From Vulcanimicrobiota bacterium (GTDB lineage: Bacteria; Vulcanimicrobiota; Vulcanimicrobiia; Vulcanimicrobiales; Vulcanimicrobiaceae), in the NCBI GenBank assembly GCA_003168375.1, contig PMSI01000001.1:124001-188000 (forward strand): 64,000 nucleotides of DNA, given 5' to 3'. Position numbers and translations under genes: made by a program. Within the stretch, counting starts at the first letter, position 1. Each line of letters opens with the position of its first letter. Positions 3,508 through 20,331 of the stretch are shown here, in pieces. The notes below the pieces were generated by a model that ran no database searches, was not told the DNA's origin, and worked only from the letters and a program-made list of their open reading frames with translations.

Positions 3508-4875
3508 GTGGCGTATCTCGCGCTGGCGCTTGCGGTCGCGATGTCGAGCCTCGACGGCTCGATCGCGAACATCGCGCTGCCCACGCTCGCGCGCGAGCTC
3601 GGCACCTCTCCGGCCGAATCGATCTGGGTCGTCAACGGCTTCCAGCTGGCCGTCACCGCATCGCTGCTCGCGTTCGCCGCGCTGGGCCAGCTGCGCGGCC
3701 CGTCACGGGTCTACCGCGCCGGCGTCATCGTGTTCGTCGTCGGCTCGCTGGCGTGCGCGCTCGCGCGGACGCTGCCGCTGCTCATCGCCGCGCGCGTGCT
3801 ACAGGGGCTCGGTGCATCCGCGATCATGGCGATCTCCCCCGCGATCCTGCGTGACATCTTCCCGCGCGCGCAGCTCGGCCGCGCGCTCGGACTCAACGGC
3901 GTCGTCGTGGCGACCAGCGCGGCGGCCGGGCCGACGCTGGGCGGGCTGATTCTCGCGGTGCTGCCGTGGCCGTGGCTGTTTGCGATCAACGTCCCGCTCG
4001 GTATCGCGAACATCGCGCTCAACCGGGCGCTGCCGCGGAGCGAGCGCAATCGCGGCTGGCTCGACATGCCGAGCGTCGCAACGAGCGCGCTCGGCTTCGC
4101 GCTGACGATCTGGGGGCTCGACGGCTTCGCGCGCGCGGAACCTGCGTGGACGATCGCGCTGCGCCTGGTCGTCGGGATCGCGGCGGCGAGCTGGTTCGTG
4201 CGGCGCCAATTCACCCTGGCGCGCCCGATGATCGCGCTCGACCTGTTCCGCATTCCGGCGTTCTCGTTCGCCGGCGCGACATCGTTCGCGACGTATACGG
4301 CGCAAGGTCTGGCGTACGTCGCGCTGCCGTTCTCGTTCCAGGTTGCGCTCGGCCGCACGCCGCTCGAATCCGGATTGCTGCTCACGTCGTGGCCGCTCGC
4401 GGTCGCGCTGGTCGCGCCGGTTGCAGGCCGCCTCTCGGACCGCGTTCCGGCGGGCATCCTCGCGACGATCGGACTCGCGGCACTCGCGCTCGGCCTGGGG
4501 TTGTACGCGACGCTTCCCGCGGATCCGACCGGGGCCGAGATCCTGCTTCGCGGCGCCGTCTGTGGGCTCGGGTTCGGATTCTTTCAGTCCCCGAACAATC
4601 GCGAGCTCATCGGCAGTGCGCCGCGCGAGAAGAGCGCGAGCGCGGCGGGCCTGCTCGCCACCGTTCGCGTCAGCGGGCAGACCGTCGGCACGGCACTGGT
4701 GGCGATCGTCTTCGGCGTGTTCGGCGCGTCGGTCGCCGGCGCAGCGGCGCCGCACGACGCTGTCGCGCGCGCTGCGCCGGCAGTACTGTGGCTGGCGTGC
4801 GGATTCGCCGGCGTCGCGACGATCGCCAGCGCGCTGCGCCTCCGGAAGAGTTCGGTTCCTTCGCGAGCCGGGTAG
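3508..4875 (+). CDS. MFS transporter, DHA2 (EmrB/QacA-like) family
   Basis: Drug:proton antiporter-type permease of about 455 residues with roughly 14 hydrophobic segments. The N-terminal helix ends in the DHA2 signature SSLDGSIANIALPTLARELG, and the antiporter motif-C-like stretch SAAAGPTLGGLI follows near residue 130. GTG 3508 is used here, but the same frame is open upstream: in-frame CTG 3457 would give LTPTDEHSDGLPLPRRR before the first helix, a more usual cytoplasmic N-terminus, and would overlap the previous stop. Substrate unknown. A Cys-less rhodanese gene follows 11 bases downstream. Confidence 0.88.
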   Translation: MAYLALALAVAMSSLDGSIANIALPTLARELGTSPAESIWVVNGFQLAVTASLLAFAALGQLRGPSRVYRAGVIVFVVGSLACALARTLPLLIAARVLQGLGASAIMAISPAILRDIFPRAQLGRALGLNGVVVATSAAAGPTLGGLILAVLPWPWLFAINVPLGIANIALNRALPRSERNRGWLDMPSVATSALGFALTIWGLDGFARAEPAWTIALRLVVGIAAASWFVRRQFTLARPMIALDLFRIPAFSFAGATSFATYTAQGLAYVALPFSFQVALGRTPLESGLLLTSWPLAVALVAPVAGRLSDRVPAGILATIGLAALALGLGLYATLPADPTGAEILLRGAVCGLGFGFFQSPNNRELIGSAPREKSASAAGLLATVRVSGQTVGTALVAIVFGVFGASVAGAAAPHDAVARAAPAVLWLACGFAGVATIASALRLRKSSVPSRAG

Positions 4876-13738: not shown

Positions 13739-13773
13739 TGTCATCCTGAGCTTGTCGAAGGGTCAGGATGACA
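13739..13773. terminator. Convergent hairpin formed by dispersed repeat copy B
   Basis: Two 11-bp perfectly complementary arms, TGTCATCCTGA (13739-13749) and TCAGGATGACA (13763-13773), enclose a 13-base loop. It lies between converging genes and includes the stop codon of the R3H ATPase, so it could end transcription from both sides, though no T-tract follows. The loop plus left arm is the intact copy of the dispersed repeat. Confidence 0.5.
13740..13762 (+). repeat. Dispersed repeat copy B (reference copy)
   Basis: Core CCTGAGCTTGTCGAAGGG. Related copies lie at 2309-2331 (same strand, three differences) and 33793-33815 (opposite strand, 18 bases identical). Here it is intergenic and part of a larger hairpin. 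Confidence 0.65.
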
Positions 13774-15352
13774 GTTCGGGTCCTTTGAAAATCCGCACGC
13801 GGCGATTCGGCTCGAGCCCGGTGGACCGAGACTGCACCCGGTAGCGCTCGGCGAGCTGATGCTGCATCCGCCGGATGTACGAGGTCTGGGGCGTCAGCTC
13901 GATCGCGCGTGAGTCGAGGAGCACCTGGTAGACGGCCTCCTCGGCCTCGCGCATCGCGATCTCCTCGACGTCGAGCGAGGGCAGGTTGAAGACATCTTTG
14001 AGCGCGTTCTGGATCTGCGTCGTCGTGTTCGTCTTGATCGAGTAGATCGGGACGTTCTCCGCCGCGATCTGCTTGAGCCGGTCCGACTCCTTGCGTTCGA
14101 GCGTCTTGAGCGTCAGGACCACGTCGGCGTCGTCCCACTTGCGTGCGATCGAGGCGTGGACGCGCAGGTTGTGGACCGCGCGCTCGATCTTGTTGCGCGA
14201 GACGCCGTACGGGAAGATCATCAGCGGCTTCGCGTCGTCGGGGACCGCTTCGCCGGCCGCGCCGAACATCGTCGAGTCGTCGTCGCGCGGCTGCGTGCGC
14301 AGCTCGCGGACCTTCTCCAGCGACATCGCCTCGGGGTTGGCGTGCTGGACGATGTCGATCGCGCCGCCCACGGTGCGCTGGCGCACCTCGGGCTGCGGCT
14401 GGTACCCGCGCAGCAGCGCATCGACGACTTCGCCGACGTTCTGGTGGATCGCCAGCCGGTCGCGGTCCTGGATCTCGACCAGCACGTCGAACGTCGGTGG
14501 CTGTTTGCGCTCGAGGACGGTCTTGCGCGTCCCGCGCCGCCGCGCTTCCTCGTCGGAAAGCGTGACCGCGCTGATCCCGCCGAGCAGGTCCGAGAGCGTC
14601 GGGTTCATCAGCAGGTTTTCGAGGGTTTGGCCGTGCGCCGTAGCGATCAGCTGCACGCCGCGCTCCGCGATCGTGCGCGCGGCGAGCGCTTCCGCTTCCG
14701 TTCCCATCTCGTCGATGACGATGACCTGCGGCATGTGGTTCTCCACCGCCTCGATCATCACGTTGTGCTGGAGGTGCGGATCGGTGACCGGCATGCGGCG
14801 CGAGTGCCCGATCCCTGAGTGCGGAACGTCGCCGTCGCCCGCGATCTCGTTCGACGTGTCGACGATGACGACGCGCTTGCGATCTTCCGCCAGCACGCGC
14901 GCGCACTCGCGCAGCATCGTCGTCTTGCCGACGCCGGGGCGCCCGAGCAGACAGATGGACTTTCCGCTGCGGATCACGTCGAGCACGATGTCGATCGTAC
15001 CGTACACCGCGCGCCCGACACGACACGTGAGCCCGACGATGCGCCCGGTGCGATTGCGGATCGCGCTGATGCGGTGCAGCGTTTGCTCGATACCGGCACG
15101 GTTGTCGCCGCCGAAAGGCGAGAGCCGCGCGGTGACGTGCGCAATGTCTTCCGACGTGACCGCCGTTTCGCTGAGAAACACGAAGTCGTCGTCGAAGCGT
15201 GCCTCGGGTGGACGGCCGAGGTCCAGCACCACTTCGATGACGCGGTCCAGATGTGGAAGACGGACGAGCGTTTGGCGGATGGGGAGGGGGAAGATGTCCA
15301 GGAGCTGCGTCAGCTCCCAATTCGGTACGAAAGACTCGGCGTTAACGGCCAA
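13763..15352 (-). CDS. R3H-domain AAA ATPase (Ycf45 / SpoIIIAA-like)
   Basis: 529 residues. Central ATPase: P-loop LLGRPGVGKTTMLRECARVL, Walker B MPQVIVIDEMGTEAEALAA, and HGQTLENLL. The preceding SAIRNRTGRIVGLTCRVGRAV block is shared with the SpoIIIAA/Ycf45 ATPase group. The C-terminus carries an R3H nucleic-acid-binding motif (YIRRMQHQLAERYRVQS, then EPNRRVRIF). The start is TTG 15352, backed by a GAGGAGA ribosome site 8 bases upstream. These proteins occur in cyanobacteria, Firmicutes and other non-model phyla; the function is unknown outside sporulation. No other sporulation gene is seen here. Confidence 0.88.
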   Translation of the reverse strand: MAVNAESFVPNWELTQLLDIFPLPIRQTLVRLPHLDRVIEVVLDLGRPPEARFDDDFVFLSETAVTSEDIAHVTARLSPFGGDNRAGIEQTLHRISAIRNRTGRIVGLTCRVGRAVYGTIDIVLDVIRSGKSICLLGRPGVGKTTMLRECARVLAEDRKRVVIVDTSNEIAGDGDVPHSGIGHSRRMPVTDPHLQHNVMIEAVENHMPQVIVIDEMGTEAEALAARTIAERGVQLIATAHGQTLENLLMNPTLSDLLGGISAVTLSDEEARRRGTRKTVLERKQPPTFDVLVEIQDRDRLAIHQNVGEVVDALLRGYQPQPEVRQRTVGGAIDIVQHANPEAMSLEKVRELRTQPRDDDSTMFGAAGEAVPDDAKPLMIFPYGVSRNKIERAVHNLRVHASIARKWDDADVVLTLKTLERKESDRLKQIAAENVPIYSIKTNTTTQIQNALKDVFNLPSLDVEEIAMREAEEAVYQVLLDSRAIELTPQTSYIRRMQHQLAERYRVQSRSTGLEPNRRVRIFKGPELSS

Positions 15353-17033: not shown

Positions 17034-17615
17034 CTAGAGCATCACCAGGCCGAGCCGCACCCCGAGCGTGACGGCTTCCGTGCGCGTCGCCGCCCCGAGC
17101 TTCGCCAGGATCGTAGCGACGTGCGCTTTGACCGTGTTCTCGCTGATCGCGAGCCGCTCGGCGATGCGACGGTTCGATAAACCGCCGGCGAGCATCCCGA
17201 GCACTTGGTGCTCGCGCGCGGTCAGCGCTTCGGCGCGCGCGGTACCGGGCAACGCCGTCGCCGCGGGCGCGAGCGAGTCGCGCAACGAGCCGTCGAGCAC
17301 GACGAGTCCGGCGGCGATCGCGTCCAGCGCTGCGAGCAGTTCGCGCGCTTCGCTCTGGCGCGCCAGCACCGCCGCCGCGCCGGCACGCAGGGCGGCGAGC
17401 GAGATCTCGGCGTGCGGATCGTCGACCAGCAGGATCGTCGGAACGGTGAAACCTTGGGCGACCGCTGCCAGCGCCTCGCGGGCGCCGACGGCGTCACGCA
17501 CGACCGCGTCGGCGGCCTCGAGCGGAACCAGCTCGACGCGATCGCCGAGCAGGCGCGCGAGCCGCTCGCGCGCCGCGTCGCCGGCGTCGATCGCGACCCG
17601 CGCGCGGTCAGGCAG
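17034..17615 (-). CDS. LuxR/NarL-type response regulator
   Basis: The C-terminal half is a clear LuxR helix-turn-helix (LTAREHQVLGMLAGGLSNRRIAERL, then SENTVKAHVATILAKLGA). The N-terminal half is receiver-like. GTG 17501 would remove its first 38 residues; the frame is open upstream to CTG 17615 and encodes RVAIDAGDAARERLARLLGD, an alpha/beta start of a receiver. A GGGGA ribosome site lies 6 bases before that CTG, which overlaps the protease stop, so I use it with reservation. The aspartate of VVRDAVG could be the phosphoacceptor. No kinase gene is adjacent. Confidence 0.8.
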   Translation of the reverse strand: MPDRARVAIDAGDAARERLARLLGDRVELVPLEAADAVVRDAVGAREALAAVAQGFTVPTILLVDDPHAEISLAALRAGAAAVLARQSEARELLAALDAIAAGLVVLDGSLRDSLAPAATALPGTARAEALTAREHQVLGMLAGGLSNRRIAERLAISENTVKAHVATILAKLGAATRTEAVTLGVRLGLVML

Positions 17616-18405
17616 CGCGCGTCCCCGCGATTTCCGGCGGGACCGGCACGGCGATCCGAACGCCGCCGCGCAGGACGTCGAGCACGGTCGCGAAGCGCAG
17701 CCGCCCCGCGTCGCGAGCCAGCACGACGTCGCCGACGATCAGTCCGGCGCGTTCGCCGCGCCCGCCGCGTTCGAGCTCGACGACGGCGAGCGCAACGCGC
17801 CCGTCGCGTAGCCGGGCGGGCACCAGCCGGATGCCGAGCAGCGACGGTTCGCGCTGCGCACCGGTAAAACGCTGGACGTCATCGCTGGGGACGGCGAGCG
17901 CGAGCCCGCCGACGACCATGCTGTTGATCCCGACGACCCGGCCGCTCGCGTCGGCGAGCGGACCGCCGGAGTTCCCCGGTGCGAGCAGCAGGTCGGCCTG
18001 GACGAACCGGCGGCCGGCGTCGCCGACGGTCGCGTGCGCAATCCCCATCGTCACGGCATTCGGGATTCCCAGCGGATGTCCGACCGCGACCAGCACCTCG
18101 CCGACACGGAGCCCGGCGGGATCGCGGACCGCTGCGGCCGGCAGGTCGCCGGCGTCGATGCGGAGCAGCGCGAGGTCGCGCTGCACGTCGCGGCGCTCTA
18201 CCCGTCCGGTGAAGCGCCGTCCGTCGCTCAGCACGATCTCGGCCTGCGGGCGGCTCGCGACGTGCGCGTTCGTCACGATCGTGCCGTCGCTCGACCAGAT
18301 CACGCCCGAGCCCGCGCCGTCGCGCCCGAGCCGCACGGCGACGGTACTCGCGCGCAAGCGCTCCGTCAGCGCTTCGAGATCGTTCTCGATCGCGTTTATC
18401 GGCAT
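17608..18405 (-). CDS. Trypsin-like (HtrA/DegP-type) serine protease, cytoplasmic
   Basis: 265 residues. The full triad is visible: His in SDGTIVTNAHVASR, Asp in QRDLALLRIDAG, Ser in LAPGNSGGPLADASG. A degenerate PDZ-like C-terminal part (ERGGRGERAGLIVGDVVLA) follows. There is no signal peptide or membrane segment, so it should stay in the cytoplasm, unlike classical HtrA. It lies between a second HtrA-like gene (3-base gap) and a LuxR regulator with which it overlaps if that gene starts at CTG. Confidence 0.88.
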   Translation of the reverse strand: MPINAIENDLEALTERLRASTVAVRLGRDGAGSGVIWSSDGTIVTNAHVASRPQAEIVLSDGRRFTGRVERRDVQRDLALLRIDAGDLPAAAVRDPAGLRVGEVLVAVGHPLGIPNAVTMGIAHATVGDAGRRFVQADLLLAPGNSGGPLADASGRVVGINSMVVGGLALAVPSDDVQRFTGAQREPSLLGIRLVPARLRDGRVALAVVELERGGRGERAGLIVGDVVLARDAGRLRFATVLDVLRGGVRIAVPVPPEIAGTRAA

Positions 18406-18408
18406 GCC

Positions 18409-19284
18409 CTAGTCGTCCGCGGGACGGTCGCCGACCGTCACGCGCAGCGATTTCGGCGAACCGCCGCGCAACACGTCGACGGCGAGTTCCGTCCCGACCG
18501 TTCCCGATCCGAGCCGCGCGTGCACGTCGTCGGCGTCCTCGACGCGCGCGCCGCCGATCGCGACGATGATATCGCCGACGATCAGCCCGCCGTGGTCGGC
18601 GGGACTGCCGGGCTCGACGCCCAGCACGATCGCACCGCCCGCAACTGCTTGCAGCGCGACGCCGAGGTAACCGCGCGGGATCCGTCCGCCGCGCGTCAGG
18701 AGCGCATCGACGACGCGCTCGATCGTCGTCGCCGGGACGGTCACGACTTGGCGGCGCGAGAGGCCGCCAGTGTTCAGGCCGAAGACGCGGCCGCCGACGT
18801 CGACGAGCGGGCTCCCCGAGAAGCGCGGATACAGCGAGAGGTCGGGGCGAACGAAGCGGTCGACGTCGCCGCCCTGCCAGGTGCGCCACGCGCCGCCGAC
18901 GGCGCTGATCACGCCCATCGACGCCGCGAGATCGCCGTCGTCGTCGCGCGCCACCGCGAGCGCGATCGCGCCGACGCGCAGCGCCTCGGGGGCGGCGAAC
19001 TCGAGCGGCGTCCCGGGACTCGTCACGCGGAGCAGCGCAAGGTCGGTCGACGGATCGCGCCCGACGATCGTCGCCGGTTCGGCGGTCCCGCCGGCGCGAA
19101 CGATCTCGACCTCGTCGCTCTCGAGCGCATGGTCGGCGGTCAGGATGAGGTCGGGCCGGATGAAAAACCCGCTTGACCCGATCCGCGAGCGTGCTTCGAC
19201 CGCGACGACCCCCGCGGCGACGCGCTCGACGGTCGCGGCAAGATCGTTTGAAAGCGCGACGAGCGCGCCGGTTTCGGTAGCCAT
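18409..19284 (-). CDS. Second HtrA-like protease with PDZ domain
   Basis: 291 residues, paralogous to its downstream neighbour. The triad is His in LILTADHALES, Asp in STDLALLRVTS and Ser in YPRFSGSPLVD, where the usual GNSGGP has become FSGSP, so the oxyanion loop differs. A good PDZ domain follows (RGYLGVALQAV, PGSPADHGGLIVGDIIVAIGG). No signal peptide. Probably the first of three genes (protease, protease, response regulator). A perfect 16-base palindrome lies 35 bases upstream. Confidence 0.86.
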   Translation of the reverse strand: MATETGALVALSNDLAATVERVAAGVVAVEARSRIGSSGFFIRPDLILTADHALESDEVEIVRAGGTAEPATIVGRDPSTDLALLRVTSPGTPLEFAAPEALRVGAIALAVARDDDGDLAASMGVISAVGGAWRTWQGGDVDRFVRPDLSLYPRFSGSPLVDVGGRVFGLNTGGLSRRQVVTVPATTIERVVDALLTRGGRIPRGYLGVALQAVAGGAIVLGVEPGSPADHGGLIVGDIIVAIGGARVEDADDVHARLGSGTVGTELAVDVLRGGSPKSLRVTVGDRPADD

Positions 19285-19318
19285 GCCGCGATCGTACGCC
19301 GCGCGGCGCGCACCCGCA

Positions 19319-19334
19319 TCACCCGTTCGGGTGA
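19319..19334. promoter_or_regulatory. Perfect 16-bp palindrome upstream of the protease pair
   Basis: TCACCCGTTCGGGTGA: two 7-bp arms around TT, in the 60-base gap between the unknown gene and the protease pair. The size and symmetry suit a dimeric regulator, but a rho-type or hairpin pause is also possible; no T-tract follows. Confidence 0.4.
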
Positions 19335-19344
19335 GCGGCGACCG

Positions 19345-20331
19345 TCACGAGACCAGGTGGGCCGTCAAGACCTCGGCGATACCCGCAGCGAACCGCCCGA
19401 CGCTGTTCGCCGTCTCAAGCGGCGGTACGCCCTGCACGAACGATCGCGCGACCAACAGAGCAAACAGCACGCCGGCAGACACGCCGAGGATCGCGATCTC
19501 GCTCGGAACGCTGCGCTTCGCTTCCGCGATGCGCGCCAGCGACGCCGCCGCGGCTTCATCGCGGAGCTCGATGAGAAAGACCATGATCCCGCGCGCGGCT
19601 TCGAGGTCGCCCGCAATGTCTGCGCGGAGGTCGGCGCGGATCGTCGCGCCCGCACGCGTGGCCGCCAACGCCCGCCCGAGCTCCGCCCTGTCGATCCCCT
19701 GAAGCCACACGGGTGGAAGCAATGACCCGAGGCTCACGTCACTCACGCGATATCGTTCGTCGGCGCCGATGACGTCGGCGATTCCCAGCGCAATACGATC
19801 GAGCTCGACGGTCGGGTCGTACGGATCGGAGCCCTGTTCGACGAAGCCGGGACCAGCGTCAGTTTGCACGACCGCGTAACACCAGGTGCGAAGGCCCCGT
19901 ACCGGCAGGGCACTGAAGTCGCGCAGCAATTCCGCCATCTCCGGAGCGGCATCGTGCGCGGCGCGTTCGAAGAGTCGCGCGGCATCGAGTCCCCGCGAGA
20001 CGGCCGCGTACTGGAGCAGCGGCATCGGCCGGTTCCGATCGCGCGGATCGACGCGTGGCGCATGGATCATCGCGACGGCGGTCAAGCCATCGATGATGTA
20101 CGGCTCGGCGTCGGCCGCGCGAAGCGCGAAGACAGCGTTGCGCCGTGCGAACGCCCAAAGGGTCCAGTACTCGTCGGCGATGTCGATGCGCCAACGGGCC
20201 TGCCGAGCCGGGTCCGCGCCGGCGTAGCGACGGCAGACCGAGCGCACTGCTGCGTCGACGCGGTTTTCGATCGGGTTCGTCAGCTCGAAATCGCCGGCGG
20301 ATCGGGAATATCGTACACCGAGAACCATCAT
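19345..20331 (-). CDS. Protein of unknown function, downstream of decarboxylase
   Basis: 328 residues, no recognised domain. Largely helical, acidic and Ala-rich. It contains YWTLWAFARRNAVFALRAADA (45-75), LRTWCYAVVQTDAGPGFVEQG (about 150) and one hydrophobic stretch SEIAILGVSAGVLFALLVARSF near residue 285. The start ATG overlaps the decarboxylase stop by ATGA, so the two are translationally coupled. The upstream bases match the ORF's codon bias, so it is very likely a real gene. Confidence 0.65.
   Translation of the reverse strand: MMVLGVRYSRSAGDFELTNPIENRVDAAVRSVCRRYAGADPARQARWRIDIADEYWTLWAFARRNAVFALRAADAEPYIIDGLTAVAMIHAPRVDPRDRNRPMPLLQYAAVSRGLDAARLFERAAHDAAPEMAELLRDFSALPVRGLRTWCYAVVQTDAGPGFVEQGSDPYDPTVELDRIALGIADVIGADERYRVSDVSLGSLLPPVWLQGIDRAELGRALAATRAGATIRADLRADIAGDLEAARGIMVFLIELRDEAAAASLARIAEAKRSVPSEIAILGVSAGVLFALLVARSFVQGVPPLETANSVGRFAAGIAEVLTAHLVS

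Follow-up and report, generated by a model that had tools for sequence, protein, structure and literature searches.

Signal-less HtrA-type proteins share a conserved operon with a LuxR/NarL-type regulator of decayed receiver in Eremiobacterota and several other bacterial lineages

Within the window (the 64,000-nt stretch of contig PMSI01000001.1 analysed here, from the Eremiobacterota genome G000), three adjacent genes, which we call A, B, and L, encode two HtrA-type proteins and a NarL/LiaR-type regulator; they are listed in Table 1 with the promoter elements upstream of A, and the coordinates and strand given for them in the first-pass annotation were correct. The ATG of B lies 3 nt past the stop codon of A. 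The same annotation had the LuxR gene overlapping B, which is not the case if only ATG, GTG, and TTG starts are considered, because the reading frame then spans 17034-17501 with no earlier such start. The homologous L frame, however, extends to the end of B, where the CTG at 17613-17615 is probably the translation start and would give an overlap of 8 nt. The L start overlaps the B stop as ATGA, GTGA, or TTGA in 14 of the 22 junctions compared; the remaining eight are seven same-genus loci, including the window (CTGCCTGA), and L052.

Table 1 Features of the A-B-L locus in the window
Feature	Position	Strand
A: signal-less HtrA-type protein (Trypsin_2 and PDZ), 291 aa, loop PRFSGSP	18409..19284	-
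B: signal-less HtrA-type protease, 265 aa, GNSGGP intact, C-terminal PDZ degenerate	17608..18405	-
L: NarL/LiaR-type regulator, decayed receiver and LuxR HTH	17034..17615 (predicted CTG start)	-
16-bp palindrome TCACCCGAACGGGTGA, -50 to -35 of the A start, proposed L operator	19319..19334	-
-10-like hexamer TACGAT, 6 nt before the A start	19291..19296	-

Pfam identified Trypsin_2 (9.5e-24) and PDZ_2 (1.8e-15) in A and Trypsin_2 (2.8e-31) in B, where the PDZ match was weak, partial, and below cut-off. The PDZ has been lost in several B orthologues; in L054, L056, L065, L067, and L068, B is a bare protease domain of ~190 aa that nevertheless keeps its place in the operon. When compared with solved structures, the A profile matched DegP-like chains (7e-66) and DegS (~1e-43), and every NCBIfam HtrA model scored A far under its cut-off (for the Do family, 134.1 bits against 416.2 for TIGR02037, and 79.6 bits against 422.95 for TIGR02038). 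An AF2 model of A computed from five sequences had a mean pLDDT of 47.2 and was not used.

The catalytic triad is present in both window proteins (H52/D81/S156 in A). The standard oxyanion loop GNSGGP is found in B (PGNSGGP), as in nearly all of its orthologues, and is absent from A (PRFSGSP), so that the replacement of GNSGGP by FSGSP reported earlier for one of the proteases belongs to A, in which the catalytic Ser is retained. Directly ahead of this Ser, the 30 Eremiobacterota rows and Paraburkholderia carry Phe or Tyr and Deinococcus carries Val; Asn occurs there in no row. One position earlier, where HtrA has Gly, the window and the seven nearest rows have Arg; in S1 proteases, G193 contributes to the oxyanion hole. 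Read by profile, His-Asp-Ser is kept in 32 of 36 LuxR-linked A sequences and in all 30 aligned Eremiobacterota A; the four exceptions have E-D-E (two Microvirga), E-D-Q (Bradyrhizobium), and P-G-G (Rubrobacter) at these positions. The A alignment, A1, omits L077 (frameshifted A) as well as L009 and L042 (contig ends); L118 (frameshifted A) was excluded from the triad count and the tree, and L046, L048, and L082, which duplicate L007, L008, and L009, were left out of the alignments.

Conservation of the three-gene order, which had been proposed as a check, was examined in 32 Eremiobacterota loci (31 stretches around A-clade matches plus the window), 30 of which could be tested, L061 and L082 being cut by contig ends. 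L directly follows A or A-B in 30 of 30, with L of L064 read through in the B frame across an ambiguous base. B is missing from six of these loci (L066, L070-L074), which consist of A-L only. As a comparison, L was absent within the stretch at six other signal-less HtrA loci (L075, L076, L078, L083-L085) and at three other trypsin-type loci of the window's genome (L079-L081), that is, present at 0 of 9. Outside Eremiobacterota, A is followed by L in seven of seven loci: two from Microvirga and one from Rubrobacter indicoceani, in which a second, catalytically intact HtrA lies downstream of L, and four with A-L from Bradyrhizobium sp. Ash2021, Paraburkholderia sprentiae, P. phymatum, and Deinococcus sp. 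KNUC1210. Seven other relatives (L012-L015, L121-L123) have no L directly downstream. In P. phymatum (L118, pBPHY01), A is split over two frames, and this copy is probably decaying. A phylum-wide search with a single HtrA query, which found matches in 147 of 148 genomes, was rejected as a count of the module because it mixes the LuxR-linked clade with ordinary HtrAs. The arrangement had been called unusual; it is indeed not annotated as a system, but it is widespread across several bacterial phyla.

In a tree of 56 proteins, built by a quick method and with the Rubrobacter and Deinococcus rows (L119, L120) on long branches, the LuxR-linked A proteins (27 rows) lie on one side of a single branch with an SH-aLRT of 95, B (14 rows) is grouped with an SH-aLRT of 99, and the two clades are sisters (SH-aLRT 94), as expected of the paralogues that they had been taken for; own_L004 was excluded for doubtful ORF choice. 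The second HtrA of Microvirga and Rubrobacter clusters in another signal-less clade, apart from B. That clade is common in Eremiobacterota (L075, L076, L078, L083-L085; also L010:7633-8583 and L119:5624-6631), has GNSGGP intact in the members read and an N-terminus resembling DxYSxAVTxVVERVxPAVVxIE, has close relatives on Rhizobium megaplasmids, and mostly lacks a LuxR partner, its pairing with A-L being seen in Microvirga and Rubrobacter.

Around the operon, the flanking genes OKR, HNH, NMO, and R3H are common to the genus only; across distant lineages, the only recurring neighbours besides A, B, and L are generic ABC ATPases, whose positions are unrelated. The top neighbour clusters include no recurrent histidine kinase family, and PADLOC returned weak matches only, to generic trypsin or HTH domains. 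Directly upstream of A, at 19345-20331 (-), the window encodes a 328-aa protein without a Pfam or NCBIfam match, for which a 42% relative occupies the same place only in L007/L046. The protein encoded at 13763-15352 (-) is a fusion of a SpoIIIAA-like AAA ATPase with an R3H domain and also matches PF25516 'PTPase'.

The palindrome upstream of A is centred at -42.5 from the A start. When eight same-genus sequences were anchored at this start, at least seven of them agreed in 18 of the 19 columns between -48 and -30 and also from -15 to -11, compared with 0 of 92 columns from -140 to -49 and 0 of 14 from -29 to -16. The conserved -10-like box in the genus, TACGAT or TAGCAT, ends 6 nt ahead of the A start codon, from which a leaderless transcript is predicted; the spacing between palindrome and -10 box in L007 and L008 is the same as in the other six sequences. 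Class II lux-type activators bind a dyad centred near -42.5, adjoining the -10 element, and the dyad ahead of A occupies this position relative to a start site that is predicted rather than mapped.

In other lineages, variants of the element (CTAGCCGAATCGGTGA, CTAGCCTTTTTACCGG, and similar) stand ahead of CATACT-like boxes. Both CTA[AG]C and a -10-like box after it were present in 15 of 39 upstream regions (mean of 0.19 and maximum of 3 in 1000 shuffles), and the two parts are 38-40 nt apart in 13 of the 15 loci with both, while in those 13 the distance to the assumed start ranges from 13 to 96 nt. With a spacing of 38 nt and a -10 box starting at -12, the 16-bp element again falls at -50 to -35. 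L116-L119 lack CTA[AG]C upstream of A. In L116 (Bradyrhizobium), the inverted repeat TTCGGG-N5-CCCGAA lies ~50-65 nt upstream of A (position 3995) and is possibly the version of the operator in that lineage.

Allowing at most one mismatch, ACCCGWWCGGGTGA occurs at 38 places in five same-genus genomes and the reversed control pattern at 2, which means that sites outside the operon exist. The perfect palindrome is found only at the A promoter in the window's own genome (G000) and in G008, G102, and G134; in G091, the A promoter carries one mismatch and the perfect match lies elsewhere (C26). Among the 30 of 38 places examined, no second site was shared at orthologous promoters of the five genomes, and the flanks of the non-operon sites are not common between genomes, save for one pair (L105/L112) that looks coding. 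As far as these 30 places go, the palindrome thus appears dedicated to the A-B-L operon. Its neighbourhood, its class II position, and this uniqueness argue strongly, at the level of sequence, that L binds the palindrome and autoregulates, although the element could serve a regulator other than L.

A single promoter ahead of A is consistent with plain regulated quality control, in which L activates A and B, both degrade damaged cytoplasmic proteins, and A has no action on L. The intact triad of all 30 aligned Eremiobacterota A proteins and the GNSGGP loop of nearly all B fit this as well. We regard it as possible but rather unlikely, as A persists beside L after losing catalytic residues in Microvirga, Bradyrhizobium, and Rubrobacter, and six Eremiobacterota loci have A-L and no B, which indicates that the link with L is stricter for A than for proteolytic capacity. 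Since A in those three genera has lost its catalytic residues, the constant part of the arrangement is a protease fold with a PDZ domain and a LuxR-type protein, and not proteolysis by A. The locus had been described as a cytoplasmic, regulated proteolysis module; the cytoplasmic location and the linked, dedicated regulator are borne out, and proteolysis is so in part, given the catalytic residues lost from A in the same genera.

L contains the GerE/LuxR HTH (Pfam, 2.1e-19) typical of NarL/LiaR regulators, and a profile of 29 L sequences (alignment A3; L007 and L061 are among those not included) matched the structures of full-length LiaR/VraR (3.5e-35), NarL, and ChrA. In the model of the window L, which is weak (mean pLDDT 64.8), strands alternate with helices ahead of the HTH helices, and the top ranks of a Foldseek search with it were full-length response regulators, at a TM-score of ~0.25 and an rmsd >13 that speak to fold class only. 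Although the fold matches, L does not have the full receiver set of acidic pair, Asp, and Lys. The Lys is missing in 31 of 31 L sequences with a residue at that position; the acceptor is Asp in 16 of 32 and replaced in the other 16, nine of which have Glu. In the same alignment, the acidic pair is not retained in Eremiobacterota L, and an IDD motif in Microvirga and Bradyrhizobium L may be this pair shifted by one residue. Bradyrhizobium L is without most of the receiver, which is therefore dispensable. The locus in question, in Bradyrhizobium sp. Ash2021 (L116:4879-5253), lies on a conjugative plasmid and combines an L that is little beyond an HTH with a catalytically dead A.

The receiver fold, the full-length match to LiaR/VraR/NarL, and the Asp kept in half of the L sequences could point to an ordinary two-component response regulator that is served by a distant kinase and counts A and B among many targets. 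This we hold to be distinctly improbable in view of the absent Lys, the frequent replacement of the acceptor, the lack of a recurring histidine kinase family in the top neighbour clusters, and the lack of a common second promoter site. The decayed phosphorylation site and the lack of a recurrent kinase suggest that the activity of L is probably set by other means.

Both proteases had been described as lacking a signal peptide or anchor, and hydropathy, used here in place of a trained predictor, agrees: within the first 60 residues, the best 17-residue mean is 1.35 for A, which has no N-terminal hydrophobic stretch, and 0.61 for B, whereas two further trypsin-type proteins encoded in this genome reach 2.31 and 2.30 near their N-termini. 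The A start of five orthologues from the genus (L007, L008, L047, L049, and L050) is preceded by an in-frame stop at a distance of 3 codons, which leaves no space for a hidden signal. By hydropathy, and for A also by the upstream frame of those orthologues, neither A nor B has a signal peptide or N-terminal anchor of the kind seen in the Do family, and a cytoplasmic location of both is supported. Most characterised bacterial HtrA proteins are extracytoplasmic and the closest solved relatives of A are DegP/DegS types, but export of A and B by a non-classical route, to act outside the cytoplasm like the usual HtrA, is very improbable given the absent hydrophobic segment, for which there is often no room, and the predicted leaderless start that would fix the N-terminus of A.

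The reading that we favour, to which we give an even chance, is that A-B-L is a self-contained cytoplasmic stress-response operon in which L activates its own transcription, A restrains L, and B cuts. L, an orphan regulator, would bind the predicted operator at -42.5, activate the single promoter ahead of A, and thereby control mainly A, B, and itself. With its HtrA fold and PDZ domain, A would act as a cytoplasmic sensor of unfolded protein or exposed C-termini and determine how active or how stable L is, by binding and, in some lineages, by cutting; B, or another HtrA, would be the executing protease. Because A is never separated from L in our sample and can be catalytically dead, we propose that it restrains or releases L. 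The gene order and overlaps, the missing export signals, the decayed receiver, the promoter element with its fixed spacing, and the single A clade can all be read from the sequences themselves. That A acts on L is a guess, and the division into A as sensor and B as executor is put forward tentatively. A broader version, which we consider unlikely, is a widespread, so far undescribed one-operon signalling system in which an HtrA/PDZ protein came to reside in the cytoplasm and turned into the sensor and co-regulator of a LuxR/NarL-type activator with a receiver that is no longer phosphorylated; protein damage, detected by the PDZ protease fold, would then replace the input of a histidine kinase. 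The sensor of Microvirga, Bradyrhizobium, and Rubrobacter would be nothing but a pseudoprotease, and cutting would fall to the second, active HtrA that Microvirga and Rubrobacter possess.

A shares the protease fold and PDZ domain, and in most cases the triad, with DegS, DegP, and DegQ (S1C, HtrA). A and B differ from these in being without signal or anchor and in having a PDZ that is single or degenerate, and A differs further in having Phe or Tyr in place of Asn ahead of the catalytic Ser; a LuxR-type gene is also linked. DegS is membrane-anchored and works through an anti-sigma factor in the DegS-RseA-sigmaE envelope stress circuit. The circuit proposed here would resemble it in coupling a PDZ protease to a transcription factor in a stress loop, but A-B-L is wholly cytoplasmic by prediction, and its regulator is of LuxR/NarL type and encoded in the same operon. 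Like the NarL/LiaR/VraR regulators, including atypical orphans, L comprises a receiver and a LuxR HTH over its full length; in contrast to them, its phosphorylation site is decayed, no recurrent kinase is nearby, and it shares an operon with HtrA-type genes. Intracellular trypsin-like peptidases also occur in the conserved operons of vWA-MoxR and NucA conflict systems (PMC7159879), whereas the constant partner of A is a LuxR-type regulator; no MoxR, vWA, Trypco, or NucA partner was recognised in the operon of the window. A full-text search, with most subscription journals beyond its reach, found no publication in which a signal-less HtrA is associated with a LuxR-type regulator. The operon is real, conserved, and made of known domains, and a description of it in the literature is apparently lacking.

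If the proposed circuit is true, HtrA biology would gain a cytoplasmic branch, and there would be a possible explanation of how some orphan response regulators with a decayed receiver are driven. The repeated loss of catalytic residues in A represents a natural series from protease to pseudoprotease beside the same regulator.
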